Notes: generated by a model not told the origin, from the sequence alone. Numbered from the stretch's first letter, positions 41,846 through 60,784 are shown. The stretch: 64,000 bases of DNA from Bacteriovorax sp. Seq25_V (GCF_000447795.1 NZ_AUNI01000008.1:1-64000), one strand, 5' to 3'. Made by a program: numbers and translations.

Positions 41846-41846
41846 T

Positions 41847-41897
41847 AAAATTGGAGCAAGGCTAGGGGGGGAGGACCTCACTCCAATTTTTATTTTT
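41847..41897. terminator. Bidirectional terminator with long loop
   Basis: AAAATTGGAG (41847-41856) pairs with CTCCAATTTT (41881-41890), followed by TATTTTT. It lies between the convergent PilZ gene and the gene ending at 41900. The loop is G-rich. Confidence 0.85.
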
Positions 41898-41899
41898 AC

Positions 41900-42355: not shown

Positions 42356-42448
42356 ATTTATTTCCCTTTAAGTTGAGTTTTTTAGATATTACCAAATTAA
42401 AACTATCGGGTAATTGTTTCTGGTAATCTTTTTAGGCCTGTCAAAATG

Positions 42449-42478
42449 TTAGACACTTTTTGAAAGTGAGAATAAAAT
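42449..42478 (+). promoter_or_regulatory. Candidate promoter of the carboxylase operon, possibly leaderless
   Basis: TTAGAC (42449-42454), 18 bases, TAAAAT (42473-42478). The expected start of transcription falls at about 42485, the A of the ATG. No ribosome binding site precedes that ATG, which agrees with a leaderless message. Inferred from motifs only. Confidence 0.4.
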
Positions 42479-42484
42479 AAACAT

Positions 42485-43867
42485 ATGAAAATTAATAAGA
42501 CCAAAAGAATTGGTTTGAATATTGACTCATGGATAGAGGCGCTTCTTGATGAAAATAGTCTCGAAAAAGTATTTTTTAGCAATGAGATTTCTGTGTTTTC
42601 TGGACTAGGCACTATCCACGACCGTCCTGTTGCTTTCTATGGTCATAATCCAAAGATTGATCAAGGCTTTGTCTCCTCTATTGGGGCACAGAAGATTGTT
42701 CAAATTATGGACCTGGCATTTGAGAGGAAGATCCCACTTATATCCTTTGTCTGCTCTCCTGGTGTGAGTGTAAGTGAAGGTCTTGCTAGTGGTCATGAGT
42801 ATACTCAGGTCATCGTTAGAAATATAAAATACTCTGGTATTATTCCACAAATCTCAATTGTTCTTGGGACAACGATGGGAGCGACGGCCTATTCGGCTAC
42901 ACTTAGCGACTTTGTTCTTTTTAATAAGTCACGTTCAACTTTAATGGTAACGGGGCCGAGTGTTATTGAAAAAGTAATTGGTGAAAAAGTTTCTATTAAG
43001 GAGCTTGGTGGAAGTGAGGTTCATGCACAGACTACAGGGATTGCAGATTTTGTAGATAAAGACATAGCGTCTCAAATTTCGCGTGCCCGTGCTCTCGTGA
43101 GTTTCTTGCCTGCGAATGCATTAGACAGACCCCCGGCCCGTACAGCTGTTCATCCTATTGATAACATGCCAAGTGTTCCAGTTAATTCTAAAGAATCATT
43201 TGAGATGAAGGAATTTGCACTTTCTCTATGTGATGCAGGAGAGTTCATGGAACATCGTGCAGAGTATGGAAAAAGTATGCTTTGTCTCTTTGCATATATT
43301 GGTGGCCAGCCATTTGGCATTATGGCAAATCAGTCTAAGTTTAATGCCGGAGTTATCGATTGTGATACCAGTATTAAATCTTCTCGTTTCTTAAGACTAT
43401 GTGATGCTTATAATCTTCCAATTATAAATCTCATTGATGTTCCAGGCTTTATGCCTGGAAAAACTCAAGAGCATTTAGGACTTTTGCGGCATGGCGCCTC
43501 TCTTTGTCAGGCAATGCAAACCACGACCCTTCGCTATAGTGTCGTTGTTCGTAAGTGTTATGGAGCAGCAGCATTCATTATGATGCAAACTCGTGCTCAG
43601 GGGGGCCAATATGTTTGGGCCTTAGATAATTCTAAGATTGCGGTTATGGGACATGATGGAGCAGCTTCAATGCTTGAGGCTCAAATGAGTCCCGAACAAT
43701 ATTATGATGATTATGAGGATCCTGAAATTTCTAAGAAGCTTGGTATTGTTGATGAGATTATCTCTTCAACCCAGCTTCGTGATGCAATCATAGAAAGGTT
43801 TAGGCAGGATTCAATGGTTAATCCCAATGACCTTGATAATAAGAAAATGATTAATATTACTCCATAG
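42485..43867 (+). CDS. Acyl-CoA carboxylase, carboxyltransferase subunit
   Basis: 460 residues, the fused alpha/beta carboxyltransferase of the propionyl/acetyl-CoA carboxylase type. Key family segments are SPGVSVSEG, TTMGATAYSAT, GGSEVHAQTTGIAD (the acyl-CoA loop) and NLIDVPGFMPG. It transfers carboxyl from biotin to an acyl-CoA, probably to make malonyl- or methylmalonyl-CoA. The biotin carboxylase subunit is four genes downstream, so this looks like a dedicated carboxylase for the cluster. The N-terminus is shorter than in PccB. Confidence 0.9.
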   Translation: MKINKTKRIGLNIDSWIEALLDENSLEKVFFSNEISVFSGLGTIHDRPVAFYGHNPKIDQGFVSSIGAQKIVQIMDLAFERKIPLISFVCSPGVSVSEGLASGHEYTQVIVRNIKYSGIIPQISIVLGTTMGATAYSATLSDFVLFNKSRSTLMVTGPSVIEKVIGEKVSIKELGGSEVHAQTTGIADFVDKDIASQISRARALVSFLPANALDRPPARTAVHPIDNMPSVPVNSKESFEMKEFALSLCDAGEFMEHRAEYGKSMLCLFAYIGGQPFGIMANQSKFNAGVIDCDTSIKSSRFLRLCDAYNLPIINLIDVPGFMPGKTQEHLGLLRHGASLCQAMQTTTLRYSVVVRKCYGAAAFIMMQTRAQGGQYVWALDNSKIAVMGHDGAASMLEAQMSPEQYYDDYEDPEISKKLGIVDEIISSTQLRDAIIERFRQDSMVNPNDLDNKKMINITP

Positions 43868-43880
43868 GAGAGTTATAGGT

Positions 43881-44144
43881 ATGAAGCAATTTAATGATGA
43901 TGATTTAGAATTTCTAATTTCTGCAATTGAAGAAACTGATGATGTTTTTGTAAAGCTTCCTGTGGGGAGAATCCGTCCAGAGCACGACCTTGCAAAAGAT
44001 CTCGGGCTTGATTCTCTTGGAAAGATTAATCTCTTCTATGAAATCTCAGATAGACTGGAAACAGATGACGAGGAAGAGGAAACTCTTGATTGGAAACAGG
44101 TGCGAGATATTCTTAGCTATATTCACGAAAATAGAAATGACTAA
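43881..44144 (+). CDS. Acyl carrier protein
   Basis: 87 residues, acidic. DLGLDSLGKINLFYEI holds the 4'-phosphopantetheine attachment Ser45. TAGGAG lies upstream. It is one of two ACPs in the cluster and differs from housekeeping ACP, implying a dedicated acyl intermediate. Its 3' end overlaps the next gene by 8 bases. Confidence 0.9.
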   Translation: MKQFNDDDLEFLISAIEETDDVFVKLPVGRIRPEHDLAKDLGLDSLGKINLFYEISDRLETDDEEEETLDWKQVRDILSYIHENRND

Positions 44145-45024
44145 ATTCGCAGTTGTTGACATAACTCAGGAGGAGTTTTGGAAAGTTCCAAAATTCTTCA
44201 TTGATGGCCTTAAAAGTGAATTTCCTACACTGGAGTTGATTCACGTCAAAGATATACTCTCATTGAAAAAAGATATTGAGGACTGTCAGGTCTTGATTTC
44301 GATTCCAACCCTTCCAAGTGTTGTGAAGAGATTAAACTCAACAGAGGCAATTTTTATTATTGGTTCGGGGATTCCTGAATCTGTATTACAACTCAAAAAG
44401 AAAAAACCAGAGCTTAAAATTTTTAATATGTCTGGTATCAATGCTTCTAGTGTCGCCGACCAGGCAATATATTTGACTCTAAAAGCGACTCGAGCAGATG
44501 GATTTAAGACACTTCCACGGCGAATAGATAAACTATCAATGCTAGTCATTGGAACTGGCCATGTGGCCTTAAATATTGACAGTCGTTTCAAAGATTCTTT
44601 TAAAACTGTCACTTTGGCCGGGAGAAGTAACCCAGGTATCAAAAACTATCTTAGTTTTAATGATCTTGATTCAGAGGTTCTTTCTTCGTTTGATATTATC
44701 GTTTTGGCCATTGCTTATAATGATGAAACAGCAAGAATATTAGATTTAAACTTTTTAAAAAATCTTAGAGAAGATGCGATTGTCATTAATGTTGCTCGAG
44801 CTGAATTTTTCTTAGAAGAAGAACTTGTCGAAATTCTTAATGAACGTAAGAATCTTCTCTATCTAACAGATCTTACGCAACCAGAGTTTTACCCTGCTGA
44901 TGGAGTTTTAAATAGTTTGAATAACTTTTATAATACTCCTCATATGGGTGGTACCTATGACTCAATCTGGGAAGACTATCTTGTTAGTATAAAGAAACAG
45001 TTAAAGGATTACTTAAAATGCTAA
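44137..45024 (+). CDS. D-isomer-specific 2-hydroxyacid dehydrogenase-like
   Basis: 295 residues from the ATG at 44137, which overlaps the ACP stop. The NAD-binding motif reads MLVIGTGHVALNI. The catalytic set is visible: Arg in INVARAEFF, Glu in TQPEFYP and His in NTPHMGG. These enzymes interconvert 2-ketoacids and 2-hydroxyacids. The GTGHVA loop and the weak N-terminal domain show it is a divergent member. In this cluster it may make or use a 2-hydroxy-acyl building block. Confidence 0.82.
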   Translation: MTKFAVVDITQEEFWKVPKFFIDGLKSEFPTLELIHVKDILSLKKDIEDCQVLISIPTLPSVVKRLNSTEAIFIIGSGIPESVLQLKKKKPELKIFNMSGINASSVADQAIYLTLKATRADGFKTLPRRIDKLSMLVIGTGHVALNIDSRFKDSFKTVTLAGRSNPGIKNYLSFNDLDSEVLSSFDIIVLAIAYNDETARILDLNFLKNLREDAIVINVARAEFFLEEELVEILNERKNLLYLTDLTQPEFYPADGVLNSLNNFYNTPHMGGTYDSIWEDYLVSIKKQLKDYLKC

Positions 45025-46583
45025 ACACTTATCATGATAAATTCGAAAAGCTTTTTGACGCTAAAAATTCGCTTAAAGAAGATATATTAAGTGATGATGA
45101 GTGTAGTAAGTATCCATCTGAAGCTTCTAAGTATATTTCAAATGGAGTTCTCTCTTATCTTGTACCAGCAGGGTATGGTGGAAGTTTTGAAAATATTTTC
45201 CAAACCTTCTGTATGGGAAGGGCATTGGCACGAAGAAATGTCACAACGGCAATTGCTGTTGGGCAGAGTTTCTTGGGCTCTCTTCCTATTTGGATTTCAG
45301 GTAATGATGATCTTAAGAAGCGACAGGCGGCTGTTCTTCTTGCTGGTGGATCAAGTTGTTTGGCCTTAACTGAACTTGCGCATGGAAGTGATCTCAGCAG
45401 TAGTGAATGTGAAGTTAAGGATGGAAAACTTTTAGGTACTAAGTGGTGTATAAATAATGCGACAATAGGTAAGGCAATGACTGTTATCTGCAAGGATGAA
45501 AATGCATTGAGCCTAGTATTCGTTGATAAGTCAGAAACTTCTCATTTTAAAAATATTGAAAAAATAAAAACCCATGGTATTCGAGGGGCCGATATTAGTG
45601 GAATCGAATTTGACTCCTATCCAGTTAAGGATGAAGACTATGTAGGAAGTCGATTTAAGGCCCTGGATACAATTTCTAAAACAATGCAAATATCTCGAAC
45701 TCTTTGCTCGTCATTTTCTCTAGGTGCAGCAGATTCGACATTCAGAGATACTCTAATATTTTCTCTTGATAGAGAATTATATGGTAAGAAACTTATCGAG
45801 ATGGAGACAGTAAGGGGATTGTTATCAAAAGGTCTTGCTCGTATTCTTGTCTGTGAGGCAATGGCACTTACAGCAACTCGTATGTCAAGCTTGAAACCTG
45901 AGTTAATGGCCCTTTATAGTGCTGTTGTAAAAAGTTTTATTCCAACTCAGATCGGTAGGCAAATAGATGAATGCAAGGAGATTCTTGGGGCCAGATATTA
46001 CCTACGCGAAAATGACTTTCCTCTTTTTCAAAAAAACCTCCGCGATCACAGCGTTGTCTCTTTATTCGATGGAAGTTATGGCGTAAATCTCTCACTTCTT
46101 TTGCCTGTTATTAGAAAAATGCGTATTTATAGAACGCAGAAAATTGAAAGTGAGTTAGCAAGTTTGAATGTTAACCATTCTCTCAAGAATCTTGATTTTT
46201 CAAAATTAAAGATTGGCCTTCGAACATCGGAGTTTATTATAGGAGAGTTTTTTAATTTTTCCGATGGTGGTGAATATTACACTTATAATGTCTTAAAAGA
46301 GCGTTATCTTGAAATAGAAGAAAGGGCCGAAGATATTGAAATTAATGATTCGATGCTGGCCCGAGATCTGGCCATTGAGTTTACAAATATTTTCGCTTGT
46401 ATGAATTTTATGTTGTTCTGTCACTCTAATGATGTTGACTCAAAGTTTAAGTCAGCGGCCGTTGTTGATCAAGTGATCATTAATATTTTAGAAAACTCTG
46501 AGAGTATTGTTTTTTCAACTTCATATCTCTTGGGATTTAAGGATAAGCTAGTTTCTTTATTTGATTTGGAGATCAATGAATGA
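45018..46583 (+). CDS. Acyl-CoA dehydrogenase family flavoprotein
   Basis: 521 residues. LALTELAHGSDLSS matches the FAD/substrate strand of the family. CKEILGARYYLRENDFPLFQ matches the late helix. The catalytic Glu position (usually EGT) reads FDGSYGVN, so Asp may be the base. About 100 extra residues follow the usual end. It would introduce a double bond into an acyl-CoA or acyl-ACP. It overlaps both neighbours by a few bases. Confidence 0.85.
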   Translation: MLNTYHDKFEKLFDAKNSLKEDILSDDECSKYPSEASKYISNGVLSYLVPAGYGGSFENIFQTFCMGRALARRNVTTAIAVGQSFLGSLPIWISGNDDLKKRQAAVLLAGGSSCLALTELAHGSDLSSSECEVKDGKLLGTKWCINNATIGKAMTVICKDENALSLVFVDKSETSHFKNIEKIKTHGIRGADISGIEFDSYPVKDEDYVGSRFKALDTISKTMQISRTLCSSFSLGAADSTFRDTLIFSLDRELYGKKLIEMETVRGLLSKGLARILVCEAMALTATRMSSLKPELMALYSAVVKSFIPTQIGRQIDECKEILGARYYLRENDFPLFQKNLRDHSVVSLFDGSYGVNLSLLLPVIRKMRIYRTQKIESELASLNVNHSLKNLDFSKLKIGLRTSEFIIGEFFNFSDGGEYYTYNVLKERYLEIEERAEDIEINDSMLARDLAIEFTNIFACMNFMLFCHSNDVDSKFKSAAVVDQVIINILENSESIVFSTSYLLGFKDKLVSLFDLEINE

Positions 46584-48289
46584 AAAATGTTCTAATATGT
46601 AATCGTTCAGAGATCGCTTTGAGAGCATGTAAGTCTTGTAAAAAACTTGGACTAAAAAGCTTTGCTCTTATCAATGATAGTGAAACTGATACTTTGATTG
46701 CTGAGTACTGTGATAAGTTGATTACTTTTAATGATGCAATTAATCCTTTTATGTCACTTGCAATAATAGAGCGAGTTATCAAGCAGTATGATATTCATTT
46801 CCTCTATCCTGGTTATGGTTTTCTCTCTGAAGATCCTCGACTGGCGGCCCTATGTGAAGAATTGGGAGTGATTTTTATTGGTCCTAAATCAGATGTGCTA
46901 GCGGCCCTATCTTCAAAGAGTGAGAGTTTTAATTTTGCACGAAGATGTAAGCTTAAAACCTTAGCTGTCGAGAATCCTGTACGTGGTGACTTCCCTTTGA
47001 TGTTAAAGGCAGCATTTGGTGGGGGAGGCAGAGGTAACCTCATTTGCTCTGATTTGGATTATTTTAAAGAGAGTATGATAGAAATCAAAAAACGCTCTCT
47101 TGCTCTTTTTGATAACGATGAAATTTTACTTGAGAGATTTCTCCCAAATGCTAGACACGTAGAGCTACAGGTAGTAGCAACTGCGAAGAAAGTATATTTT
47201 TTGTCGACTCGCGATTGTTCAGTTCAAATCAATTATCAAAAGTTTCTTGAAGAAGGACCAAGTGATGAACCATCTCGTAAAGTTATGAGTGGCTTCTATC
47301 CTCTAATTGAGAGGGAATTGTTGAATCTCGGCTATCTTGGAGTAGGAACCATTGAATTTCTTTGGAGTGGAAATGAACTCTTCTTTCTGGAGATGAATAC
47401 AAGAATTCAGGTTGAACATCCTGTAACAGAGGTAATTTTTGATATTGATCTTGTTGATATACAGTTTGAAATTGCTCTGAATAATCAGGTGAAGTATAAC
47501 TTTTCGCAAAATGGTAAGCATGCCATTTGTGCCCGTATTTACGCTATAGACGTTGAAGATAACTTTTCTCCTGCGCCCTCTCAAATACGTTTTGCACATC
47601 AACCAAGTTTTTTGCGATTTGATACACACTATAAAGATGGTAATTCTATTGGTCATCAGTATGATCCACTAATAGGGAAGCTCGTCGTTTCTGGTAAGGA
47701 TCGTATTGATTGTATTTCAAATTTTAAAGAGGCCCTTGGTTTATTAAAAATTGGTACCATCTCTAATAATATAAATTTTATTTCTGCAATTATCGACGAT
47801 TCAAAGTATTTAAAAGATCAATTGCATGTAAGTTTTGCAAAAGATTTCAAAGATAATTATTATGAAGCTGAATTATTAAGTGAAAAGCAAAAACAACTCG
47901 TTTGGAACAGGGCAAACTTGAATACACATGATAAGCTTGTTGAGGTTGGTAATGATTCAGGCCTTTCTATGTTTGTTGATACAAATAATGAATGTATTTA
48001 TGCTTTCAAAAAGAAAAAAGCTTTTTGTGAAAACCTTTCTTTAAATGCTCCATTTTGGCGCGAGGAAGAAGAAGGCCATACTCTTAATTATATTTCTCCT
48101 ATTACGGGTAAGGTTACAAAGATTCTATGTGAAGTTGGTGCTCAAGTAGAAAAAGGTGAGACAATTTTGATTCTTGAGGCCATGAAAACAGAGCTTAGGA
48201 TTAAGGCCCATTCAAATGGTGTTGTTGCCAGTTTACTGTGTGAAGAAGGAGGCCTCGTCAAGCGAGGCCAAGAATTACTCGTAATTTGA
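46580..48289 (+). CDS. Acyl-CoA carboxylase biotin carboxylase/BCCP subunit
   Basis: 569 residues. Residues 1-440 are biotin carboxylase: the ATP-grasp loop AFGGGGRGN and EMNTRIQVEHPVTE. The C-terminal 75 residues are a biotin carrier domain with LEAMKTELRI, biotin on Lys536 (AMKT instead of the usual AMKM). The central linker domain is short. It pairs with the carboxyltransferase at 42485. Start ATGA-overlapped with the dehydrogenase gene; it converges with the second ACP gene by 15 bases. Confidence 0.93.
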   Translation: MKNVLICNRSEIALRACKSCKKLGLKSFALINDSETDTLIAEYCDKLITFNDAINPFMSLAIIERVIKQYDIHFLYPGYGFLSEDPRLAALCEELGVIFIGPKSDVLAALSSKSESFNFARRCKLKTLAVENPVRGDFPLMLKAAFGGGGRGNLICSDLDYFKESMIEIKKRSLALFDNDEILLERFLPNARHVELQVVATAKKVYFLSTRDCSVQINYQKFLEEGPSDEPSRKVMSGFYPLIERELLNLGYLGVGTIEFLWSGNELFFLEMNTRIQVEHPVTEVIFDIDLVDIQFEIALNNQVKYNFSQNGKHAICARIYAIDVEDNFSPAPSQIRFAHQPSFLRFDTHYKDGNSIGHQYDPLIGKLVVSGKDRIDCISNFKEALGLLKIGTISNNINFISAIIDDSKYLKDQLHVSFAKDFKDNYYEAELLSEKQKQLVWNRANLNTHDKLVEVGNDSGLSMFVDTNNECIYAFKKKKAFCENLSLNAPFWREEEEGHTLNYISPITGKVTKILCEVGAQVEKGETILILEAMKTELRIKAHSNGVVASLLCEEGGLVKRGQELLVI

Positions 48290-48508
48290 AATGAATTCCA
48301 TGAGCTGAGCAACGGTCTTAATATTTAAGGCCTGCTCTTGTTCAATAATGACATCAAAATCTTCTTCTAGTGAAGAAATAAGATCTGCAATTGAAATTGA
48401 GTCCATTTTAAGATCAGTTTTAAACTCATCAGAGTCTTTGATGTCTTCTTGTTCAATACCTGTTATATCATAGATTAAATCTAGAATATCGCTTCGATCT
48501 GGTTTCAA
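48275..48508 (-). CDS. Acyl carrier protein, second copy
   Basis: 77 residues. DLKMDSISIADLISSLEEDF gives the phosphopantetheine Ser37. Last gene of the minus-strand unit, 10 bases after the oxidase gene. Its pairing with the oxidase suggests that the oxidase acts on an ACP-bound chain. Confidence 0.92.
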   Translation of the reverse strand: MKPDRSDILDLIYDITGIEQEDIKDSDEFKTDLKMDSISIADLISSLEEDFDVIIEQEQALNIKTVAQLMEFISNYE

Positions 48509-48518
48509 AATAAGCTCC

Positions 48519-49172
48519 TTATTTAACGATCTGATCTAGCATGAATTTCTTCATTGCTGCAGATTCTTTAATTGTTTGTAGAATCTCTCTTTTGTCGTCA
48601 TCAGAAAGATCGGCCTTGGCAAGAATTTCTTTTTGCTCTTGAAGATGGTCTTCATCGAGATCACCATGTTCTCTAAAGAAGGTAATCGCTTTTTTCTCGT
48701 CGTCATTTAACACTGAGACAATATTTTTAACAACAATTGGGGCAAGTTCGGTCGCCATCCCTTCGAGAAAATAGAGAACGCCAAATGCACAAAATGGATT
48801 AGCAATAGCAACTTTATAATGAAAGAAACTTACCCATGCTGTTACTCCAACATTAGGAATAGAATTAATAATTTCGTTTCTATCACAACCAAATTTTTCA
48901 AGATCCTTGAGTGCCATTAACTCATGTCCCATTTCTTCACCAGAGTGTTCAAGAATCCATTTTCTTACTTTAAGGTGTTTGCTATCCATTCTTCTTGCAG
49001 CGAGAGGAGTAAATGAAGATGAATTTGTGACATAATGGTAAGCAGCTTTTAGGTATTCAACATAATACTCTTTGGCATTTTTTCCGTTTGCAATATCTTG
49101 GAAAAACTTTGATTCCTTGATAATTTCAATCCCTTCTGAAAGGGCCTGGTCTAATTGCTCTTGAAAACTCAT
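48519..49172 (-). CDS. Haem-oxygenase-fold oxidase (TenA/PqqC-like, HDO-type)
   Basis: 217 residues, all-helical. EEMGHELMAL (79-88), YFLEGMATEL (134-143) and REHGDLDEDHL (167-177) supply the Glu and His residues seen in iron-containing redox enzymes of the haem-oxygenase-like superfamily. Related enzymes cut fatty acids to terminal alkenes (UndA) or oxidise amines and amino acids. True TenA or PqqC is less likely because no thiamine or PQQ gene is nearby. It sits beside an ACP gene. Confidence 0.75.
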   Translation of the reverse strand: MSFQEQLDQALSEGIEIIKESKFFQDIANGKNAKEYYVEYLKAAYHYVTNSSSFTPLAARRMDSKHLKVRKWILEHSGEEMGHELMALKDLEKFGCDRNEIINSIPNVGVTAWVSFFHYKVAIANPFCAFGVLYFLEGMATELAPIVVKNIVSVLNDDEKKAITFFREHGDLDEDHLQEQKEILAKADLSDDDKREILQTIKESAAMKKFMLDQIVK

Positions 49173-49174
49173 TT

Positions 49175-49987
49175 CTATTCCTTTTGACCATCTTCACTTA
49201 TTAAGCGAGCAGGGCTTCCACCCCAAGTTTCGCCCGACTTTATTTGATGATCTTTTTCGATAATTGTATTGCTTTTAATTTTTACGTTATCGGGAATTAT
49301 AGTACCAAACTTTATTGAGCATTCTGCTCCGATTTTGACGTTATTTCCGATTATTACATCTGGGTAAATTCTTGAGTTTGTTCCAACGACACTATGATCT
49401 CCGATCACAACCCCTGGAGTAATAATTGAAAATCCGCCAACTACTGAGCGCGAACCAATTTTGACTCTTTTTTGAACATGAGTTTTACCACTCGGTGAAT
49501 AATGACAGCTGATGGTGCAACCTAAGCCTAAAATTGAGTTCTCACCAACTTCTATGAGTTCGGGCTGTCTGATGGTCGCATTCATTCCAACAAGGGTGGT
49601 AAGGGGCAATTTCATGCCCATTAATCGATAATATAACCAGTTTAAATAAAAAATAAAATGGCATTGGGAAGCAAATGGTGAGGCAATCATAATGCCTTGA
49701 AACAGGGAATTTAGTACCCAGCCTAAATACTTTAAGTTGGGACCTATTGGAAACTCACCTACGCTAAGTTTTGGTTGCAATACTCTCTTTAACAAACCTA
49801 GTGTAATGATAAAGAGATTTAAAAAGAGGAAATAGGAAAAAACAACTAGTGCAACACTAATCAAAAGTTTTGAACTATCCCAATATCTTGTGACAAGATA
49901 TATTGGTAGTGAAAGTGATATTGAGTATACGATAAATGCAAAAAATAAAAAGAGGATATCAAAAATTAAAAATGGTTTTTTAAACAT
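49175..49987 (-). CDS. Membrane-anchored hexapeptide-repeat acyltransferase
   Basis: 270 residues. The first 100 hold two or more membrane helices. From about 130 onward isoleucine-patch repeats (VGENSILGLG, VVIGDHSVVGT, VIIGNNVKIGA) form a left-handed beta-helix. Ends WGGSPARLI, a standard cap. Such enzymes transfer an acetyl or fatty acyl group to a sugar, alcohol or amine. Overlaps the hydrolase gene by 8 bases. Confidence 0.82.
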   Translation of the reverse strand: MFKKPFLIFDILFLFFAFIVYSISLSLPIYLVTRYWDSSKLLISVALVVFSYFLFLNLFIITLGLLKRVLQPKLSVGEFPIGPNLKYLGWVLNSLFQGIMIASPFASQCHFIFYLNWLYYRLMGMKLPLTTLVGMNATIRQPELIEVGENSILGLGCTISCHYSPSGKTHVQKRVKIGSRSVVGGFSIITPGVVIGDHSVVGTNSRIYPDVIIGNNVKIGAECSIKFGTIIPDNVKIKSNTIIEKDHQIKSGETWGGSPARLISEDGQKE

Positions 49988-50717
49988 AATTTCTCACTAC
50001 TTTTAACACTTCCTGTGGAGCCTCAAGAGGAAGGTAGTGGCCATATTCTTTAAAGCGAATAACTGTGGCCTCTGGAGCACATTCAACAATTTTGCTCAGG
50101 TTTCTTTTTGAAAATACTTTATCCTTATCGCCCCAAAGAATAATAATCTTAGATTGATATCTTGATAGTTGAGTTTCATAATCAATTTCGATAGCCGCTA
50201 GCGATAATTCGATAAAATCACTAACTGCTTCGTCTTGTGATTCATGCCAAATTTTTTGCAACTTATGGAAGTATTCGCTGGCGTTTGATTTATTTTCACA
50301 AAAGTGTGATAAGAAATTTACTTCATTATCTAGGGAAAGAACCTGCTTTAGGAAATCAATTTCAGATTGATTATCAATGGCCGCAGTAATCATTTCTTTT
50401 CTAATTCTTGCGACCCTTGTTCCACCCGTTGCCAGTAAGAAAAGATTTTCTGCATTATTTCCAAGAATTTCATTGATTCGAAGACATAGTGAGGCTCCGA
50501 GACTAACACCCAAAAGAGCATAAGTATCATTTTTAGTCATATGCTTAGAAATCTCGTTTGCAAAATATTTTGCTAGGAATTCGAGTGTGTCTTGACTCTT
50601 ATCAAGGGCAGGGTAGTTATGAGTAATCAGTTCGTATTCATCTTGGCCAAACTTAATCATTTTTTCAAAGAGTTGGTGATTATGACCCATTGCTGGGATC
50701 AGATGAATTTTTACCAT
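49980..50717 (-). CDS. Alpha/beta hydrolase
   Basis: 245 residues. IPAMGHNHQLF opens the fold. The nucleophile is Ser72 in LGVSLGAS, the acid Asp in LWGDKDKVF and the His in EYGHYLPLE. Likely a thioesterase or esterase releasing or editing the cluster product. It overlaps neighbours on both sides. Confidence 0.88.
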   Translation of the reverse strand: MVKIHLIPAMGHNHQLFEKMIKFGQDEYELITHNYPALDKSQDTLEFLAKYFANEISKHMTKNDTYALLGVSLGASLCLRINEILGNNAENLFLLATGGTRVARIRKEMITAAIDNQSEIDFLKQVLSLDNEVNFLSHFCENKSNASEYFHKLQKIWHESQDEAVSDFIELSLAAIEIDYETQLSRYQSKIIILWGDKDKVFSKRNLSKIVECAPEATVIRFKEYGHYLPLEAPQEVLKVVRNYV

Positions 50718-52335: not shown

Positions 52336-52366
52336 GAAATCTCCCTTTAATTATATTTTAACGGGG

Positions 52367-53671
52367 TTAAGCATTTAAATCTAGGTGCTTTAAAATTTCC
52401 TGTCTTTTGATTTTACCCATGTTGGTTTTAGGGAATGATTTTAGAGTATGGATTTCATTAATTTGGATATAGTTGGGGATTAGTTGAGCAATTTCTTCAA
52501 GTAGCTGTAACTTCACTTCTTCTCTGAGCCCTTCACTTTCAATAATTAGTATTGGTATTGCTCCGTAGAGAGATGATGGCCTTGGACCAATGATGAAATC
52601 TTCTTTTATAACTTTTGAAATGAGAGACTCAATCTCTTCAGGGTAAATATTCACTCCTGCATAATTGATCGTATGATCTGTACGACCAAGAATATATATA
52701 TTTCCTTCAATATCACTTGCCTGGTCATTACTATCAATTTCTTTGGCCGCTAAATCTGCATGGGCGTAAAGAGACTGAACCATAAGTTTACCATCATGAA
52801 CTCTCATTTTTACACCATCAATCGCTTTTCCAATTGGCAATAGACCTGAAAGATTAGGAGTTTTTGTAATATCACTTGGAACTTCAAACGTGCTTACACG
52901 TGGTCCCATTTCTGAAAGACCATAAGTATAAAATAGTGAAGAGTTTGGAAATGACTTTTTGATTTGTGTAAGATCATCTTGATAGAGGTGAGCGGCACCA
53001 ATACTAATTTTTATTGCTCTTTCATTGATGATTTTCTTTCTTTTAAGATACTTGTTGAAAAGCCTTAATAGGGAAGGACTGAGATAGAGAACATCGATAT
53101 CAAACCTTTCAATACTTTCATAAAGCTTTTCATTGGTAGGTGTTTTATCAAAGCAGACCAAATGATGCTTGCTCGAAGCACTTCCAAGTAAGCCAATAAT
53201 ACTTCCAAAGCTATGGGTTAGTGGAAGTGGAAATAGTATATTTGAGCCATTTGAAATATTTAGCGATTTTTCGTGCGCAAACCCATTACCTAGCGACTTA
53301 CTAAGTTCAAATTCAAAACTTTTGATATTTCCACTTTTAGAGGTCGTTCCACTTGAACAAGTAATAATACGTTGCGCTTTATTTGGTGTATGATCAAATT
53401 GAAAGGTATTTTCATCAGTAATTAGGAAAGATGCATTTTTTATATTAGCAAAAATCTGTCCATCGATTTGTGATACCTGAGGATTTATAATTAAAGGGGA
53501 GTGACCCTGCTGAAGGCATTGAAAAAAGTTTTCGATGAGCTTTTTCTTATCTTCAATTTTAAGGGCCATTATTTGGCCCTTAGCATTTTCATCAAGAGTG
53601 ATAGAATCTATGACTTTTTCTGATTCTCCATTTTCTTTTAAAATTGTATAGTTTAGTTCTAGTTTATTCAA
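52367..53671 (-). CDS. Adenylate-forming enzyme, short
   Basis: 434 residues. The ANL motifs are ITCSSGTTSKSG (P-loop), FYTYGLSEMGPR and the C-terminal lysine region FPKTNMGKIKRQE. The N-terminal subdomain is shorter than usual (P-loop at about residue 105). The substrate acid is unknown. It is the third such enzyme in the unit, separated from the OleC-like gene by 3 bases. Confidence 0.87.
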   Translation of the reverse strand: MNKLELNYTILKENGESEKVIDSITLDENAKGQIMALKIEDKKKLIENFFQCLQQGHSPLIINPQVSQIDGQIFANIKNASFLITDENTFQFDHTPNKAQRIITCSSGTTSKSGNIKSFEFELSKSLGNGFAHEKSLNISNGSNILFPLPLTHSFGSIIGLLGSASSKHHLVCFDKTPTNEKLYESIERFDIDVLYLSPSLLRLFNKYLKRKKIINERAIKISIGAAHLYQDDLTQIKKSFPNSSLFYTYGLSEMGPRVSTFEVPSDITKTPNLSGLLPIGKAIDGVKMRVHDGKLMVQSLYAHADLAAKEIDSNDQASDIEGNIYILGRTDHTINYAGVNIYPEEIESLISKVIKEDFIIGPRPSSLYGAIPILIIESEGLREEVKLQLLEEIAQLIPNYIQINEIHTLKSFPKTNMGKIKRQEILKHLDLNA

Positions 53672-53674
53672 TAG

Positions 53675-55267
53675 CTAGATTTTCCCTTTTACATAGAGTT
53701 CACGTAGAAGAACTCTATTTATTTTTGATTTATGTCTATCGTCTACCGGTATATTATCGGTACGGATAATTTCTAGCTTAAGGTTATTTAACTTTGGTGT
53801 AAGTTGCTTAATTTGAGATTTGATTTTGTCAAAGTTTTCGATTGGAGTATTAATAAAAACCACCATGGCCTGATTCACTTGTATCATCGCCGAACGAACA
53901 ATCTCTGGCATACTATCAATCTTAGTTTCAAAAATATAAGGATGTAAAATATTCTCACCGTCTTTAATAACGTCATTAAGGCGACCTACAAGCCAAAGAT
54001 TTCCATCTTCGTCTATTCTTCCCGTATCTCCTGTTCGATGCCATCTCGAGCCATCTGTATCAAGAATTTTATTTTCTCTGGTCGCTTTATCATTATCAAC
54101 GTATGTCTGTACTGTGTGTGCAGAGTTAATTATTACTTCTCCAATCATACCTCTTTCAAGTGAGTAAATTTGTGGACCATTATTATCAAATTTCTCAATG
54201 CCATCAGGGAGATTAACGATTGATAGTCTTATGCCATCGTAAACTTTTCCAACCGGAAAGCCTTCACCTGTGCTATCAAGATATTGCTCAAGAGTTATTG
54301 TAGAGATTGGAGCAACTTCTGTTGATCCATAGATTATTTCTCCTTGAACATTTGGATAGACCCTTTTTAGTTTTTCACAAAATGATCGTGTCACCGGACA
54401 TCCACCAAGAGCTAGGTTTTTTAAACTCTCTACTTTTAGTCCATTCATATCTAGGTACGTTGAAAGATTATCGTTAAATGCAAATGATCCACATGTTCGT
54501 GTGACATTCCACTTCTTCATTTGATGATAAATGATTTCGGGATTTATATCTGAGACATTCGCAAAGCTCACGGCAGGTACGACAGTTGTTATAGAGCATA
54601 TCAGATTCATAAAACCAAACATCGGGAACGAAGGGAAGTCGATTGTTTCTTCTGTGCAATTCCAAAATGTCTTAATGGCCTTAATTTGTTCTGTGACATT
54701 TTTGATGTTTCTATCTGAGCCCTTTGCTCTCCCTGTTGAGCCTGAAGTGAAGGTAATGAGTGCATGATCAGATTCTTTTAAGTCTACAAAGGCTGGAGTG
54801 TGTTCAGTAGTTGAATAAAGAGAGCTTAAGTCTTTAACAAATAAACGCTTTTTGTCACAACTATATTTCTTCATTTTCCAAAGACCTGGAATGAAGTAGT
54901 GATATTTTAATAGGCGATCTATACTTACTATTGCCTTTGCATTTGAATCAGAAATTGCTGTGAGAATTTTTCTCATCCCAATTCCTGGGTCAAGAAAAAC
55001 TGCAACAAGTCCTAAAGAGAACATTGCAAGCATTAATGCATATAAATTCTCATTAATTGGGCTTAGTAGAATAATTCTATCCCCTTTTTTATAGCCTTCT
55101 TCCAGAAGTCCCTTTTGATATCTTGTAACTTCTGAAGAAAATTCTTTGAAGGTTATTATCTTCTCACTATAGTTAGAAAAGTCTTTGTATTCATTTGGAA
55201 TAACAAATGCCACTTTGTCTGGGTGTCTTTTTGCATTTTCATAGAAAACTTTTGCCAAGTTATTCAT
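53675..55267 (-). CDS. OleC-like adenylate-forming enzyme
   Basis: 530 residues. The P-loop is ITFTSGSTGRAKG. The segments AVFLDPGIGMRKIL, YGSTEVAPIST and SRWHRTGDTGRIDEDGNLW resemble OleC, the beta-lactone synthetase of head-to-head hydrocarbon synthesis. The C-terminal subdomain is present. An ordinary acyl-CoA synthetase is the alternative. It directly abuts the FAAL gene. Confidence 0.72.
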   Translation of the reverse strand: MNNLAKVFYENAKRHPDKVAFVIPNEYKDFSNYSEKIITFKEFSSEVTRYQKGLLEEGYKKGDRIILLSPINENLYALMLAMFSLGLVAVFLDPGIGMRKILTAISDSNAKAIVSIDRLLKYHYFIPGLWKMKKYSCDKKRLFVKDLSSLYSTTEHTPAFVDLKESDHALITFTSGSTGRAKGSDRNIKNVTEQIKAIKTFWNCTEETIDFPSFPMFGFMNLICSITTVVPAVSFANVSDINPEIIYHQMKKWNVTRTCGSFAFNDNLSTYLDMNGLKVESLKNLALGGCPVTRSFCEKLKRVYPNVQGEIIYGSTEVAPISTITLEQYLDSTGEGFPVGKVYDGIRLSIVNLPDGIEKFDNNGPQIYSLERGMIGEVIINSAHTVQTYVDNDKATRENKILDTDGSRWHRTGDTGRIDEDGNLWLVGRLNDVIKDGENILHPYIFETKIDSMPEIVRSAMIQVNQAMVVFINTPIENFDKIKSQIKQLTPKLNNLKLEIIRTDNIPVDDRHKSKINRVLLRELYVKGKI

Positions 55268-57058
55268 CTAAGCCTCTTGTCTTCTAGTCTTTACAGAATT
55301 AATAAGATTCACTTTAAAAATTTTAGATTTAATCTGAAGCTCTTTTAATCGGCCGATGAGATATTTTTGATTATAATTATTATCATTAATTGCACCTTGG
55401 AGGAATAGCTCCCTCATCTTTGAGCGTTGAACTTTTCCAGAAGTCGTTTTTGAAATTGTTCCAGGTGCAACAATTGTAATGTCAGACTCTTTAATTGGAA
55501 AATATTCACATAAATCATCTGAAATTCTTTTCTTAAGTTGATCTCTATTTACTTGTTTCAAAAACTTAAGATCTTTTCTTGCTTCAATAATAATATGAAT
55601 TCTTTCTGAGTCTGCCTCTTGATCAGCGACTGCAAATGCGGCAAGCCTTCCTGGTCTTACTTCGTTAGTTTTTGTTGCGTATGTCTCAAGCTCTTCAGCA
55701 TTAATATTAATACCACCAACAATGATGAGATCTTTTTTTCTGCCAGTAATATATATTTCGCCGTCTTTGATAAAACCGATATCCCCAGTTCTAAGGTATC
55801 CATTTATGAATAGTTCATCATTTAGTTCTGGCCTGTTATAGTAGCCCTTTGTCATTGATGGAGATTTTATGATGATTTCACCAACTTGATTTTCTCCACG
55901 CTCATCCCCGTTAGAGTTTATTATTTTAACTTTAATGTCATCTAGTGCTTTCCCACATGATACGATCTTTTGAATATCTTCAGATTCAGTTGAAAGTATT
56001 ATTCTTGAATTGTGCTGCATTTCTTTTTTAGATACATTAATAGTTTTAAACTCTTCAGTGGTGTTTCGGTGAAATGAAATTGCAAGCGTGTTTTCGGCCA
56101 TACCGTAACATGGTACAAACGCCCTTTTTATAAAACCACATTCTTTAAATTTATCTGCAAATAAATCTAAGGTTGATGAATTTATTGGTTCCGCTCCACA
56201 GAGTGCGATTCTTACTCCAGAGAGATCAATTTTCGACATTGCTTTTGAGCGAACTCTCTTGGCCGTCATATGGTAACCTGAATTTGGTGCGACGATGATG
56301 TTACCATTATATGTTGAAATTAGTTTTAACCATCTTGTTGGGTTAACAGCGAATTCATATGGAGTCATGATATGGATATTAAATTTATTAACAAGTGGAA
56401 CTAGAAGTCCGCCAATTAATCCCATGTCATGATGGACAGGTAACCATGAAATTACTGTATTGTCGTTTTTATCTGAAATTATTTGTCCTGAGATCTGTCT
56501 TATATTTGCTAGGACGTTACGATGAGTTAAAGTTACACCTTTTGGGTTTCCCGTACTTCCTGATGAGAATTGAATAAAGGCAATATCAGATGGTACTGGA
56601 AGATATATATTTTTTTCTGAAGGTCGAAGATCTTTATACTTTTCCTCACTTATATGGATAAGGTCGAGGACTTTAGCACATGACTCAACACTTTTTGACC
56701 CAAGAATAATTTTTGCATTAGTTGTACTTTTAATACTTTCGATAATTTCAATAAATCTCTTTTCATTGATCCATAGGTTTGTCGTCACAGGTACAGGAAT
56801 ATTACAGCTATACATAACGGCAAAAAAATTAGTCATGAATTCTTCACTATTTTCTCCCTCAATGAGAATGCATTCATTTTGGGCCAAGGTCATTAAACGC
56901 TTTGCTTTTTTCATTGCTTTATAAAGGAGCGACCTTGCACTTGTATTTAGGGGAACTTTTGATCCTTGATGAATATAAATATTTCTTAAATCACTATCTC
57001 CACTTACGATAGCGTCAATTAATGATTGAAATTTATTTTCAAGGTTCTGTGAGATCAT
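55268..57058 (-). CDS. Fatty acyl-AMP ligase (FAAL)
   Basis: 596 residues with GGAG 5 bases before the ATG. QFSSGSTGNPKGVTLTHRN is the P-loop. SWLPVHHDMGLIGG and CYGMAENTLAISF are characteristic of FAALs rather than acyl-CoA ligases. YLRTGDIGF and GRKKDLIIVGG complete the fold. FAALs activate fatty acids and pass them to carrier proteins, here probably one of the two cluster ACPs. First gene of the minus-strand unit. Confidence 0.92.
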   Translation of the reverse strand: MISQNLENKFQSLIDAIVSGDSDLRNIYIHQGSKVPLNTSARSLLYKAMKKAKRLMTLAQNECILIEGENSEEFMTNFFAVMYSCNIPVPVTTNLWINEKRFIEIIESIKSTTNAKIILGSKSVESCAKVLDLIHISEEKYKDLRPSEKNIYLPVPSDIAFIQFSSGSTGNPKGVTLTHRNVLANIRQISGQIISDKNDNTVISWLPVHHDMGLIGGLLVPLVNKFNIHIMTPYEFAVNPTRWLKLISTYNGNIIVAPNSGYHMTAKRVRSKAMSKIDLSGVRIALCGAEPINSSTLDLFADKFKECGFIKRAFVPCYGMAENTLAISFHRNTTEEFKTINVSKKEMQHNSRIILSTESEDIQKIVSCGKALDDIKVKIINSNGDERGENQVGEIIIKSPSMTKGYYNRPELNDELFINGYLRTGDIGFIKDGEIYITGRKKDLIIVGGININAEELETYATKTNEVRPGRLAAFAVADQEADSERIHIIIEARKDLKFLKQVNRDQLKKRISDDLCEYFPIKESDITIVAPGTISKTTSGKVQRSKMRELFLQGAINDNNYNQKYLIGRLKELQIKSKIFKVNLINSVKTRRQEA

Positions 57059-57133
57059 GCCTGCTCCAAAAAATGATGACTTTGTCTTAATATGTCATTT
57101 TTTTATGGAGTTCGGTCTTTATTGAAAATAATT

Positions 57134-57164
57134 CTCAAGGTGTCTACTTTTTAGACACTTTGAG
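57134..57164 (-). terminator. Terminator after the exporter pair
   Basis: CTCAAGGTGTCTA and TAGACACTTTGAG form a 13-base stem (one G-U pair) with a 5-base loop. On the minus strand it follows the RND gene stop and precedes the FAAL gene, so the exporters and the biosynthetic genes are separate transcription units. Confidence 0.75.
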
Positions 57165-57180
57165 GTTCCTGCAATATTAA

Positions 57181-59457
57181 TTACTTATCTTTGTTTTTTG
57201 TCAAGTCATAGAGGATAACTGGAAATAGAAATAAGTCCGTAAGAAGCGCCACCATGAGACCAAGACTCATCAGAAGACCTAGGTTTTGGTTTGGTACAAA
57301 ACCTGCCAGAATAAATGAGCTAAAACTAACTGATAAAATTAGCGTTGTAATAATTAAGGATGGAGCTGTTTTTTCAAAAAGTTCAATGAGAGAATCTTTG
57401 GCATTTTTGCCTTCACCTCTAATTCTAAGGAAGTTACTTGCAATGTGAATAGAGTCATCGACAGCAATTCCTAAAACAATTGATGCGATAACGGCACTTC
57501 CAATATCAAGAGGGCGACCAGTCAACTTTAAGATAAGTCCTGTTGCAAGAACTGGAATTAGATTTGGAATAAGTCCTACGATGCCAATCGTAATAGATTT
57601 TAAAAATATACTTAGAATAACTGAAATAATAACGAGGGCCATGGAAAGTGAGATAATAAATGAATGAACGACTTTCTCATTGATTGACTGCCACAAGTAT
57701 CTTTTTCCAGTTACTGCAAGATTTAAATCAAAATCCTTCGCAAGAACATTAATTTCTCTGATCATTTTCATTGTTGATTTTGAATCTTGATTCTTCATTA
57801 AAGCACTTAAACGCAGCTTACTTCCTTCAATGTTAAGCTTGTCATTTAAAGATTCACCCTCTGGTATACTTAGATTATAAAGAAAGAGATATTGAGATAT
57901 TTCTTCATTTGTGTCCGGTAATTTTCGATATTCCAATTTGTTGGCATGAAGCACTTGGTTCATTCGTTTTACAATGTCGACAACTGATACTGTTTTTGTA
58001 ATGTCTGGAAATTCTGATCTTAACTTCTCAGAGAATGCATCAATTCTTTTTAAAAATTCATGATTTTTAACGCCATTTTCAACCCCTGTGTCAACGGTCA
58101 TCTCTAAAGAGAAGATTCCTCCAACATTATTTTCGACATATTCAAGATCTGAGGCCACATGATATTTTTCACTGAAGTATTTTAATGGATCTGAATTTAC
58201 ATCAAGTTGAGTTGCCATATAAACTGAAAAAATAGAAAAAACTGCAAATGAGAAGTAGACCACATGCTTGTATGTGATCAAGTGATTCACGAACTTCTTA
58301 TAATCAATTGGAAAGCTTACTTCTTTCAATTTACTGTTTTTCTGGTTCTTGAAAAATAGAATAATCATCGGTGCTAAAAAGAGGTATGTGTAAAACCAAG
58401 CTACAACGGTACCTATTCCTGCAATCGCTCCAAGATCATTAATATTTTTTATGTCAGCACTCATGAAGCTAAAAAAACCAAACATTGTTGTTAATGTTGT
58501 GATTATTGTTGGAAGAAAATTCTTTTTAAGCGCCTTTGACATCGTTACATCACTTTTGATACCTGCCTTATTAAAGAGGTAGAAGGTAGATACAATGTGA
58601 ATAGCGTCGGCTAGACCTATGGCCATGATAAATTCAGGTGCAATTGCAGTGAGATTATGAATAGGAATTTCTAGGTACCCACAAAATGACATCATCGTAA
58701 TAATAGTCAATATAATCGTAAACATTGAGAGTGCGACAATCTTGATACTTCTAAACTGAAAGAAGATAAAGCAAATCATGATCGCTAGCAGTAATGGAAA
58801 AAGGACTTTCAAGTCATCAACTGCTGAGTCTTTAAAAACAGATGTAATAACAGAGTTTCCAGTAAGTTTTATCGTTATACCTTTTGGAGGAGGGTTACTT
58901 TCAAGTAGCCCATTCAATTCTCCAACTGTCTGCTTTGAATGTATCTCTTCACCAGGGAGGGCTCGAACTTTAACATAGATAAGTGCAACTTTCTTAGTTG
59001 GCCCAATAAACCTCATCATAATATCTTGGTCATTAGCTCTTTCTTTCAATTGAGCAATCGTCTGAGCATTAACTTCTACGTCAATATCCAGCATTGGGCT
59101 AATGTTGATTTCATCATCAGTTGAGTCAACCCAGTTATGAGAGGTGAGAGACTCGGCCTTGGCACTGTGGGGAAGTAGGCCCGCCTTTAGTGTGAGTGTT
59201 CTTATATATTCGAGTGTCTCTTTGTTAAAAATACCGTCTTCATTAGTAACAACTATTACTGTAGATTCACTGCTTCCAAATTCTTTTTCAAATAAATCGA
59301 TCTGATGGAGTAAAGGGTCATCCTCTTGAAACCATACTCGATAACTGAAATTCGTCTTCGCACTCATTAATCCAGGAATTGATAAGAGAACACAGAATAA
59401 CGAGATGAGAACTGTTAGTTTTGGTTTAAGGCAGATAAAGTTTATTAGTTTATTCAT
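57181..59457 (-). CDS. MMPL/HAE3-type RND exporter
   Basis: 758 residues with two repeats, each a periplasmic loop flanked by membrane helices (about 12 in total). LADAIHIVSTF and VDDSIHIASNF are the typical helix-4 and helix-10 motifs. HAE3/MMPL proteins move lipids or lipid-like products across or out of the inner membrane without a TolC partner. It overlaps the MFS gene by 8 bases and likely exports the cluster product. Confidence 0.9.
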   Translation of the reverse strand: MNKLINFICLKPKLTVLISLFCVLLSIPGLMSAKTNFSYRVWFQEDDPLLHQIDLFEKEFGSSESTVIVVTNEDGIFNKETLEYIRTLTLKAGLLPHSAKAESLTSHNWVDSTDDEINISPMLDIDVEVNAQTIAQLKERANDQDIMMRFIGPTKKVALIYVKVRALPGEEIHSKQTVGELNGLLESNPPPKGITIKLTGNSVITSVFKDSAVDDLKVLFPLLLAIMICFIFFQFRSIKIVALSMFTIILTIITMMSFCGYLEIPIHNLTAIAPEFIMAIGLADAIHIVSTFYLFNKAGIKSDVTMSKALKKNFLPTIITTLTTMFGFFSFMSADIKNINDLGAIAGIGTVVAWFYTYLFLAPMIILFFKNQKNSKLKEVSFPIDYKKFVNHLITYKHVVYFSFAVFSIFSVYMATQLDVNSDPLKYFSEKYHVASDLEYVENNVGGIFSLEMTVDTGVENGVKNHEFLKRIDAFSEKLRSEFPDITKTVSVVDIVKRMNQVLHANKLEYRKLPDTNEEISQYLFLYNLSIPEGESLNDKLNIEGSKLRLSALMKNQDSKSTMKMIREINVLAKDFDLNLAVTGKRYLWQSINEKVVHSFIISLSMALVIISVILSIFLKSITIGIVGLIPNLIPVLATGLILKLTGRPLDIGSAVIASIVLGIAVDDSIHIASNFLRIRGEGKNAKDSLIELFEKTAPSLIITTLILSVSFSSFILAGFVPNQNLGLLMSLGLMVALLTDLFLFPVILYDLTKNKDK

Positions 59458-60652
59458 TCATTACCGCTTTTGGTGAGAGAAGTTCTTTTGAACTTATAGC
59501 AAAAATTCTAAAAATATTTATTACTGCGTAAATTAGTGCGCAAGAGACTAGGAGCTCTTTTGTATTAACTTTGTCTCCAAGGATTGAGATAATTGCAGAA
59601 GCTGAAATATTTGTAAGTGTAAAGATAAAGTCGAGCAGGGCATTTGTTCGCGATATGTATCCTTTAGCAACGTAGTGTGAAAGATAGCTGAATTGAGAAG
59701 GGACTCGTATAAAAAATAATACTCCCCAAAAATAGAAAACAGTTTGTGAGACGTGATAACTGATTCCAAGGGCCCAGACTAGAAGAAAGATCGGCTCAAT
59801 GAAGCTTGTAAAGTACAGAACTTTTCCAAGTCCAAATTTAGAAATTACTTTCTTGTTTAAGAGTGCTCCAGTTAGCCCACCTAGTCCAAAGATTAACATG
59901 GCGACACCATATTCCTTTTCTCCTTTACCAAGTACATCGTGCATAAATGGAAGAATGAGTGGAATGACGATACCGGAAAAGATACCAACTAGTGCATGGC
60001 GCTCATAAAGACCTCTAAGATCAAATCTTTTTCTTACATAGGAAATTCCATCTTGAATGTCTTTGATGAAAGAGTGGTGCTCGAATTTTTTAAAATGATC
60101 AATTTTTATTAGCATAAATAAAGCTGGAGCAATGATAAATGTAGATATATCAAAGTAGACGAGATTATCAATTGATTTGAAATAACTGTAACCCCAAGTT
60201 CCGATTAGCGGACCTAGAATATGAACGAGAGCATAACTTGCGCTAAATATATTATTGGCCTTTGCCACATTCTCGACAGGGATTATGTCATTAATAAATG
60301 CTCTTTTACATGGTGTTGAAATCCCAGCAAAGATTGTTTTGAGTCCATGAGTCAGCAGAAGTGCCCAAATATTATTTGTGAGTAAGAAAACTATAGAGAG
60401 GGGAATTCTAATGACCTCACAAAGCGTTAGAAGATTTCTGCGATTACTTCTCTCTCCAACAGGTCCTGCTGTAATATTTCCAAGTAGCATTCCTGTCACA
60501 AAGAATAACTGTGTGAGGCCCATAAAAGATTTATTATGCCCAGAGATGTCATAAATATAGGCCATGAATGCAAAGTTAAATGCATAGGAGCCAAGTGCTG
60601 AAATGACTGTGGCCACCATTAAAAAGGTGAAATTCATTTGATAATTTTTCAT
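59450..60652 (-). CDS. MFS transporter
   Basis: 400 residues, about twelve helices. PVGERSNRRNLL is the loop 2-3 motif of the major facilitator family. The overall match is to the macrolide-efflux (MefA-like) or enterobactin exporter type. First gene of the two-gene exporter unit. Confidence 0.88.
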   Translation of the reverse strand: MKNYQMNFTFLMVATVISALGSYAFNFAFMAYIYDISGHNKSFMGLTQLFFVTGMLLGNITAGPVGERSNRRNLLTLCEVIRIPLSIVFLLTNNIWALLLTHGLKTIFAGISTPCKRAFINDIIPVENVAKANNIFSASYALVHILGPLIGTWGYSYFKSIDNLVYFDISTFIIAPALFMLIKIDHFKKFEHHSFIKDIQDGISYVRKRFDLRGLYERHALVGIFSGIVIPLILPFMHDVLGKGEKEYGVAMLIFGLGGLTGALLNKKVISKFGLGKVLYFTSFIEPIFLLVWALGISYHVSQTVFYFWGVLFFIRVPSQFSYLSHYVAKGYISRTNALLDFIFTLTNISASAIISILGDKVNTKELLVSCALIYAVINIFRIFAISSKELLSPKAVMNE

Positions 60653-60748
60653 AGCTAAATTATGACCCAGCTTTGCTCTCTAGGCCAAGCGGCAACACTT
60701 TACAGCTATAATTATTTATGGAATTTGAGATGAATTAAAGACAGTAGT

Positions 60749-60765
60749 GGCCGGCGACTCCGGCC
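60749..60765. terminator. GC-rich hairpin
   Basis: GGCCGG, a 5-base loop, CCGGCC. It lies past the stop of the minus-strand gene ending at 60785. No T-run follows, so termination is only likely. Confidence 0.5.
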
Positions 60766-60784
60766 TTCAGAGTGGGATGATAAA

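Follow-up and report, generated by a model that had tools for sequence, protein, structure and literature searches.

A 64,000-nt window of contig C8 from Bacteriovorax sp. Seq25_V (genome G000, 3.45 Mb; family Halobacteriovoraceae) carries, at positions 42485 to 60652, a set of 16 intact open reading frames (ORFs). With moderate confidence these are read as one chromosomal island for a pathway that is primed by a fatty acyl-AMP ligase (FAAL), uses a single condensation and leads to a secreted specialised lipid. The same genus group includes Bacteriovorax sp. DB6_IX and MedPE-SWde. Profile searches against Pfam and NCBIfam found the expected domain in every ORF, and the gene set listed in an initial annotation of this DNA, with two acyl carrier proteins (ACPs) and three adenylate-forming enzymes, is present in full. 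The enzyme families are all known; within the open-access literature searched, no known pathway or report was found for their combination as a whole.

The same tail-to-tail, two-operon cluster occurs in five genomes of marine predators of the Halobacteriovoraceae, namely that of the window, two more from its genus group (G050 and G049) and two that share only its family (G025 and G090). In the relatives 13-14 genes keep their order and orientation while the flanks differ, and protein identity to the window ranges from 27% for a 2-hydroxyacid dehydrogenase up to 70% for a haem-oxygenase-fold dimetal oxidase (HDO). The 16 genes therefore form one unit and are more than chance neighbors. In the close relatives G052 and G051 the site is empty: the homolog of 41198-41845 adjoins the symporter gene (homolog of 61198-62685), and between these flanks lies only a small reverse ORF, the homolog of 60785-60997, and no cluster gene. 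These empty sites set the limits of the island at about 41846-60784 and indicate that it was gained or lost as a block. G050 has its island at the same locus as the window genome. The claim of a single biosynthetic and export unit is thus borne out, and relatives, in which the two units might have proved unrelated, show the opposite, the units being linked. Sequence conservation in G052 and G051 makes it likely that the ORF at 60785-60997, which encodes 70 aa on the reverse strand ahead of the symporter gene, is a genuine small gene.

Strict orthologs of HDO and of the acyl-CoA dehydrogenase homolog of the island (ACAD) were found in exactly these five of the 369 Bdellovibrionota genomes searched. 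Identical sets of five would be expected about once in 5.5e10 cases under independence (our own arithmetic), a figure that treats genomes that are kin as independent. All five island-bearing genomes also have FAAL orthologs. When 84,980 species were scanned by a pattern-based method that detects only close relatives, HDO relatives turned up in this group alone. Other Bdellovibrionota have distant relatives of HDO; none of the remaining cluster genes lies in their neighborhoods, and they were rejected as concealed forms of the cluster. The membrane hexapeptide acyltransferase of the island (HEX) had no match at E 1e-12 in a plasmid collection that is a narrow sample of bacteria, and similar clusters may exist outside the Bdellovibrionota.

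The left operon lies on the forward strand and comprises a PCC/AccD-type carboxyltransferase (CT; 42485-43867), ACP1 (43881-44144), a D-2-hydroxyacid dehydrogenase family protein (44137-45024), ACAD (45018-46583) and a biotin carboxylase-BCCP fusion (BC; 46580-48289), with junctions of 13, -8, -7 and -4 bp. The start of the 2-hydroxyacid dehydrogenase is most likely the ATG at 44137, not the TTG at 43990 that overlaps ACP1. The right operon, on the reverse strand, contains ACP2 (48275-48508, with a TTG start), HDO (48519-49172), HEX (49175-49987), an alpha/beta hydrolase with a Ser nucleophile (ABH; 49980-50717), a ketoreductase-like SDR (50711-51397), a FabH-like ketoacyl synthase III (KAS III; 51385-52335), a short adenylate-forming ligase (AMP434; 52367-53671), a PRK09274-type, OleC-like ligase (OLEC; 53675-55267) and FAAL (55268-57058), with gaps between 31 and -13 bp. 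The two units converge with a 15-bp tail-to-tail overlap at 48275-48289. An MMPL/HAE3-type RND exporter (57181-59457; MMPL 2e-27, HAE3) and an MFS exporter (59450-60652; MFS_1 1.3e-27) lie upstream of FAAL on the same reverse strand, across a 122-bp gap, and all 11 genes on the right, these two included, may form one unit. Of the earlier description as two converging units and an exporter pair, the convergence stands, and the exporters may belong to the right-hand unit.

Both units stand side by side, tail to tail, in the four genomes in which the cluster is contiguous. In G049 it is split across two contigs, which hold FAAL (partial), OLEC, AMP434, KAS III, SDR, ABH, HEX, HDO and ACP2 as well as BC, ACAD and part of the 2-hydroxyacid dehydrogenase. 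The cluster in G025 lacks AMP434, which is present in G050, G049 and G090; its RND/MFS pair has moved to the far side, and CT has LolA-like and GH3 genes beside it. The cluster in G090 has no biotin carboxylase (three others are encoded elsewhere in that genome), two MacB/FtsX-type permease genes precede CT, and no RND/MFS pair was present within the approximately 20 kb examined on either side. The MFS gene adjoins the RND gene wherever it is found. Of all parts of the island, the exporters are conserved least. In G050 an insert of about 4 kb of unrelated genes between the exporters and FAAL (L034:6229-10232) contains a DNA methylase gene, a histidine-kinase-like gene and unknown genes.

The enzyme families allow a scheme to be proposed, the reaction order and product of which are inferred throughout. 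By family and motif, FAAL would convert a free fatty acid to acyl-AMP and load it onto an ACP, presumably one of the two in the island. ACAD, whose type is likewise indicated by family and motif, would desaturate the acyl-ACP at a presumed position. CT and the BC-BCCP fusion, a carboxylase by family, would carboxylate the alpha carbon of an acyl thioester, their presumed substrate, to give a malonyl-type extender; the 2-hydroxyacid dehydrogenase might adjust an alpha-oxo or hydroxy group and AMP434 might supply a second acid. KAS III, the catalytic triad of which is in place, could join the putative substrates in one decarboxylative Claisen condensation, after which SDR would reduce the beta-keto group. 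HDO, as a diiron enzyme, may oxidise or desaturate; the Ser hydrolase may act in release or transfer, OLEC may re-activate the acid and HEX may acylate it. The MMPL and MFS transporters would export the lipid. A single condensation is proposed because the island has one KAS III with a Cys-His-Asn triad and no polyketide synthase (PKS) or nonribosomal peptide synthetase (NRPS) gene; domain searches of the island proteins found no condensation, A-T or modular KS domain. On these points the initial annotation, which had matched the set to no modular PKS/NRPS and had favored one condensation on an activated fatty acid, agrees with the presence of FAAL and one FabH-like KAS III. Its summary left out the left operon, whose carboxylase, ACP1, 2-hydroxyacid dehydrogenase and ACAD more plausibly serve to build and modify a substrate bound to ACP.

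The loading enzymes and carriers have the features expected for such priming. FAAL matches NF006624 with 410 bits, the cut-off of 600 not being reached. The PP-binding match is slightly below the cut-off for ACP1 and is 4.6e-12 for ACP2; both serines are intact (DSL44 and DSI36), that of ACP1 being kept as DSL in four orthologs and that of ACP2 conserved as DSI or DSL. ACAD has the Pfam domains of its family. In a tblastn search of plasmid records, its best relatives lie directly after FAAL and before ACP. They come from lipopeptide clusters of Burkholderia glumae and Streptomyces, and from a chromosome-sized Acinetobacter baumannii record with the order FAAL-ACAD-ACP-NRPS-RND. The ACADs of the cluster and the first ACAD of the lipopeptide cassettes have a common motif, QK..RDH..V..FDGS..V, at 31-37% identity. 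The Asp of FDGS sits where most acyl-CoA dehydrogenases have their catalytic Glu. The gene had been annotated as an acyl-CoA dehydrogenase; the gene call holds, and by its motif the product is better called a FAAL-linked acyl-ACP-type dehydrogenase. In rotihibin, the 2-decenoyl chain has been attributed to a FAAL-ACAD-ACAD-ACP set (PMC8552735), and the Ac-505 cluster has the arrangement seen in the A. baumannii record (PMC5376624).

CT (Carboxyl_trans 5e-88) scores 342 bits with PCC-beta chains when compared with profiles from PDB, far above GCC (188) and MCC (179). All four CT orthologs compared have Phe or Tyr at the position equivalent to an Asp of the genome's own PCC, which we take to be a residue of the propionyl-CoA acyl pocket. 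This replacement suggests that the substrate of CT is probably other than propionyl-CoA. The island carboxylase is additional to, and distinct from, the PCC- and MCC-type enzymes of the genome; its BC-BCCP fusion, recognized by Pfam and NCBIfam, has an intact EAMKTE biotinylation motif. ACAD, CT and BC together are reminiscent of leucine-degradation (liu) operons, and the exporters shift position between genomes, as they might if an operon for catabolic acyl-CoA carboxylation and one for lipids were independent neighbors by chance. Such an origin is very improbable: the genome has a separate liu-type operon, CT is PCC-like and not MCC-like, and the two units occur together in all the contiguous genomes and were gained or lost together. 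A leucine-degradation-like operon was rejected for the left unit on the same two grounds, the PCC type of CT and the liu-type operon elsewhere.

The 2-hydroxyacid dehydrogenase (2-Hacid_dh_C 5.5e-21) has an Arg221/Glu250/His269 triad that is invariant in four orthologs sharing just 27-29% identity, and its nearest solved relatives in a profile search are formate dehydrogenase (FDH), glyoxylate reductase and McyI. FDH matches rank first in that search, yet the FDH model reaches 48 against a cut-off of 329. A role as a formate dehydrogenase supplying CO2 to the carboxylase was rejected, the Glu of the hydroxyacid-type triad being kept. Together with an ACP and ACAD, this enzyme is reminiscent of pathways to ACP-bound extender units. 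It is accordingly conceivable, as a pathway of extender or pigment type, that the left operon makes such a unit, for example hydroxymalonyl-ACP from a 2-hydroxy acid, and that the right operon couples it to a fatty acid, yielding a small molecule akin to a tetronate or butenolide; the partial resemblance of AMP434 to AmcH points the same way. We consider this quite unlikely, however: domain searches found no glyceryl-ACP (FkbH-type) gene in the island, the matches to AmcH and AmcB are far below the cut-offs, and ACAD groups by motif with the FAAL-linked enzymes. AMP434 itself has an AMP-binding domain with an intact catalytic Lys motif, MGKIKR, and resembles the 2-oxoglutaryl-ACP ligase AmcH along one stretch.

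The condensing module of the right operon was compared with the Ole system, of which the same genome has a canonical OleABCD operon (L122:4904-9399; G000:C16, approximately 46903-51398) with a haloalkane dehalogenase-like OleB. KAS III has an intact Cys114-His241-Asn271 triad, scores as FabH and forms a supported clade of its own in a tree, apart from the two FabH proteins and the OleA of the genome. SDR (adh_short/FabG-like) has an intact catalytic Y142xxxK146. ABH (Abhydrolase_1) has a Ser motif, GVSLG, that is kept in all four orthologs, and this conserved GxSxG indicates that it is not of OleB type; Pfam and NCBIfam searches gave no haloalkane-dehalogenase match, whereas the true OleB homolog of the genome matches such models. 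OLEC matches NF006754 with 386 bits (cut-off 478 not reached). It forms its own clade, outside a strongly supported clade of bacterial OleC and the ligases of actinobacterial OleACD clusters, and scores 176-182 bits with the NCBIfam OleC models (cut-offs 850-900), against 476-478 bits for the true OleC of the genome. The Ole pathway was rejected on the placement of KAS III and OLEC outside the OleA and OleC clades, the low OleC scores and the separate OleABCD operon, as the initial annotation had anticipated. The island is like the OleABCD olefin and OleACD beta-lactone systems in combining a KAS III-fold synthase, an SDR and a PRK09274-family ligase; unlike OleABCD, it has a Ser hydrolase in place of the haloalkane dehalogenase-like enzyme.

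Having KAS III, SDR and a PRK09274 ligase and no OleB-type hydrolase, as in OleA-OleD-OleC clusters, the island could instead encode a secreted beta-lactone, with KAS III and SDR making a beta-hydroxy acid, the Ser hydrolase freeing it and OLEC closing the ring. An MMPL exporter is likewise encoded in one actinobacterial OleA/C/D cluster of that kind. The position of OLEC outside the clade of OleC and actinobacterial OleACD ligases, its OleC scores far below the cut-offs and the FabH-like rather than OleA-like KAS III speak against a beta-lactone, which would also leave the carboxylase and FAAL unexplained, and we regard it as unlikely. A different form of PRK09274 ligase is common in the order: proteins of approximately 780-800 aa that by eye have an N-terminal alpha/beta-hydrolase-like extension (L181:3591-10262, L182:4093-10892, L183:358-7085). 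They are followed by genes for proteins of approximately 300 and 890 aa, the latter perhaps PEP-synthase-like by comparison with L179.

Membership of HDO (Haem_oxygenas_2) in the family that includes UndA and CADD is supported by both fold and ligands. Its AlphaFold model (pLDDT 87.5) matched CADD with a TM score of 0.83 and UndA with approximately 0.8 in Foldseek, and the six residues of the 3H/3C ligand set, E80/H83/E137/H169/D173/H176, are invariant in 11 homologs. This motif has been defined for the family, whose members with a known reaction number only about a dozen (PMC13108848). The island HDO is just 17-24% identical to the solved members and, unlike those, is set among ACP-dependent genes. 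HDO also stands beside an AMP-binding enzyme and SDR in operons of Vibrio and Citrobacter plasmids (L143:7925-12076 and L145:5925-10091), which encode a "thermostable hemolysin" (T_hemolysin), an AMP-binding protein, HDO, SDR and a hypothetical protein. These operons differ from the island in having no ACP, KAS III, carboxylase or exporter, and their HDO is approximately 26-28% identical. No description of their product was found in the open-access literature searched, and nothing relevant on HDO with ACP and a hexapeptide protein or on HDO/AMP-binding operons. A small cluster recurrent in Bdellovibrionota (L060:7715-10598, L062:8954-11922) encodes a FeeM-like N-acyltransferase, HDO, a membrane hexapeptide protein and a further gene, which in L062 is weakly ribonucleotide-reductase-small-subunit-like.

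HEX (Hexapep) orthologs share 48-66% identity. In a low-confidence model (pLDDT 59.7), a pair of helices at the N terminus leads into a hexapeptide beta-helix. Among NCBIfam models, polyprenyl-glyceryl-phosphate O-acetyltransferase and the Pls/PosA NRPS terminal domain are weakly similar, and the latter hints that the acyl donor could be a carrier-bound thioester.

Outside the island, a GH3 (OlsH-like) gene and, after it, a PAP2-family gene occupy 63299-64000 of the window and continue to approximately 65961 of C8 (L041:3300-5962); the two are possibly an amino-lipid pair. The GH3 gene is 2.6 kb outside the island and, among the NCBIfam models, scores best with OlsH (136 bits, cut-off 620). 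In G025 it is directly beside CT inside the carboxylase-side operon (L037:6479-8032). An ornithine lipid of planctomycetes is made by GH3 and an alpha/beta hydrolase (PMC12493201). The modified hydroxy acid of the island might by analogy be coupled to an amino acid by GH3 and O-acylated by the hydrolase or HEX, giving an acyloxyacyl amino lipid. GH3 lies beyond the empty-site limits in the window genome, however; it is located elsewhere in G050, was not found in G090, and occurs in 65 of the 126 genomes of the order, almost all of which have no island. An amino lipid is therefore improbable as the product, and GH3 was rejected as a core part, being outside those limits and common in the order without the island. 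Another locus of the same genome (G000:C11; L123:4832-9587) looks like a second small biosynthetic cluster, in which a DpgA-like (type III PKS-like) gene precedes genes for an MMPL-like transporter and a geranylgeranyl-reductase-family flavoprotein and then a small gene.

Several observations weigh against the FAAL-primed, single-condensation pathway. The absence of BC from the G090 cluster and of AMP434 from that of G025 means that neither is needed in place in every cluster version, and no RND/MFS pair was found within about 20 kb in G090. The scheme offers the 2-hydroxyacid dehydrogenase no clear role. The authors of the Ac-505 study saw no acyl unsaturation and suggested that their ACAD may instead act on the peptide moiety (PMC5376624), which makes the desaturation step uncertain. 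If the pathway is as proposed, one route to an exported lipid would combine priming by FAAL, a dedicated carboxylation step and a diiron HDO, the HDO family would gain a new substrate context, and the empty site in sister Halobacteriovorax genomes would provide a natural plus/minus comparison.

The island can be compared with two further known systems. Like the FAAL-ACAD-ACP lipo-initiation cassettes of rotihibin, ramoplanin and Ac-505, it has FAAL, a free-standing ACP and an ACAD with the FDGS motif, and some of those cassettes also have an MMPL/RND exporter. Unlike them, it has no NRPS or condensation domain and does have a carboxylase, KAS III, SDR, HDO, hydrolase and hexapeptide enzyme. 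It is not a member of this group, because it contains no NRPS/PKS acceptor.

In mycolate synthesis, the FAAL FadD32 and the AccD4 carboxylase provide the two halves of one Claisen condensation, which is followed by reduction, and acylation by TmaT is required for transport by MmpL3 (PMC12845086). The logic of the mycolate pathway (FadD32-AccD4/AccA3-Pks13-CmrA-TmaT-MmpL3) and that of the island appear alike, each with FAAL, a dedicated carboxylase, one ketosynthase, an SDR, an acyltransferase and an MMPL exporter. The island adds HDO, ACAD, the 2-hydroxyacid dehydrogenase and the OleC-like ligase, and alpha-branched products are without support. It is doubtful, though conceivable, that a Gram-negative predatory lineage assembled mycolate-like chemistry from free-standing parts, with HDO tailoring an ACP-bound chain, to make an exported lipid or beta-lactone of unknown class for use on prey or at the cell surface. 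Unlike the mycolate pathway, the island has a FabH-like KAS III and not Pks13, its parts are free-standing and unrelated, and it belongs to a different lineage. As Pks13 is absent, the resemblance is best regarded as a likeness of logic and not as membership.

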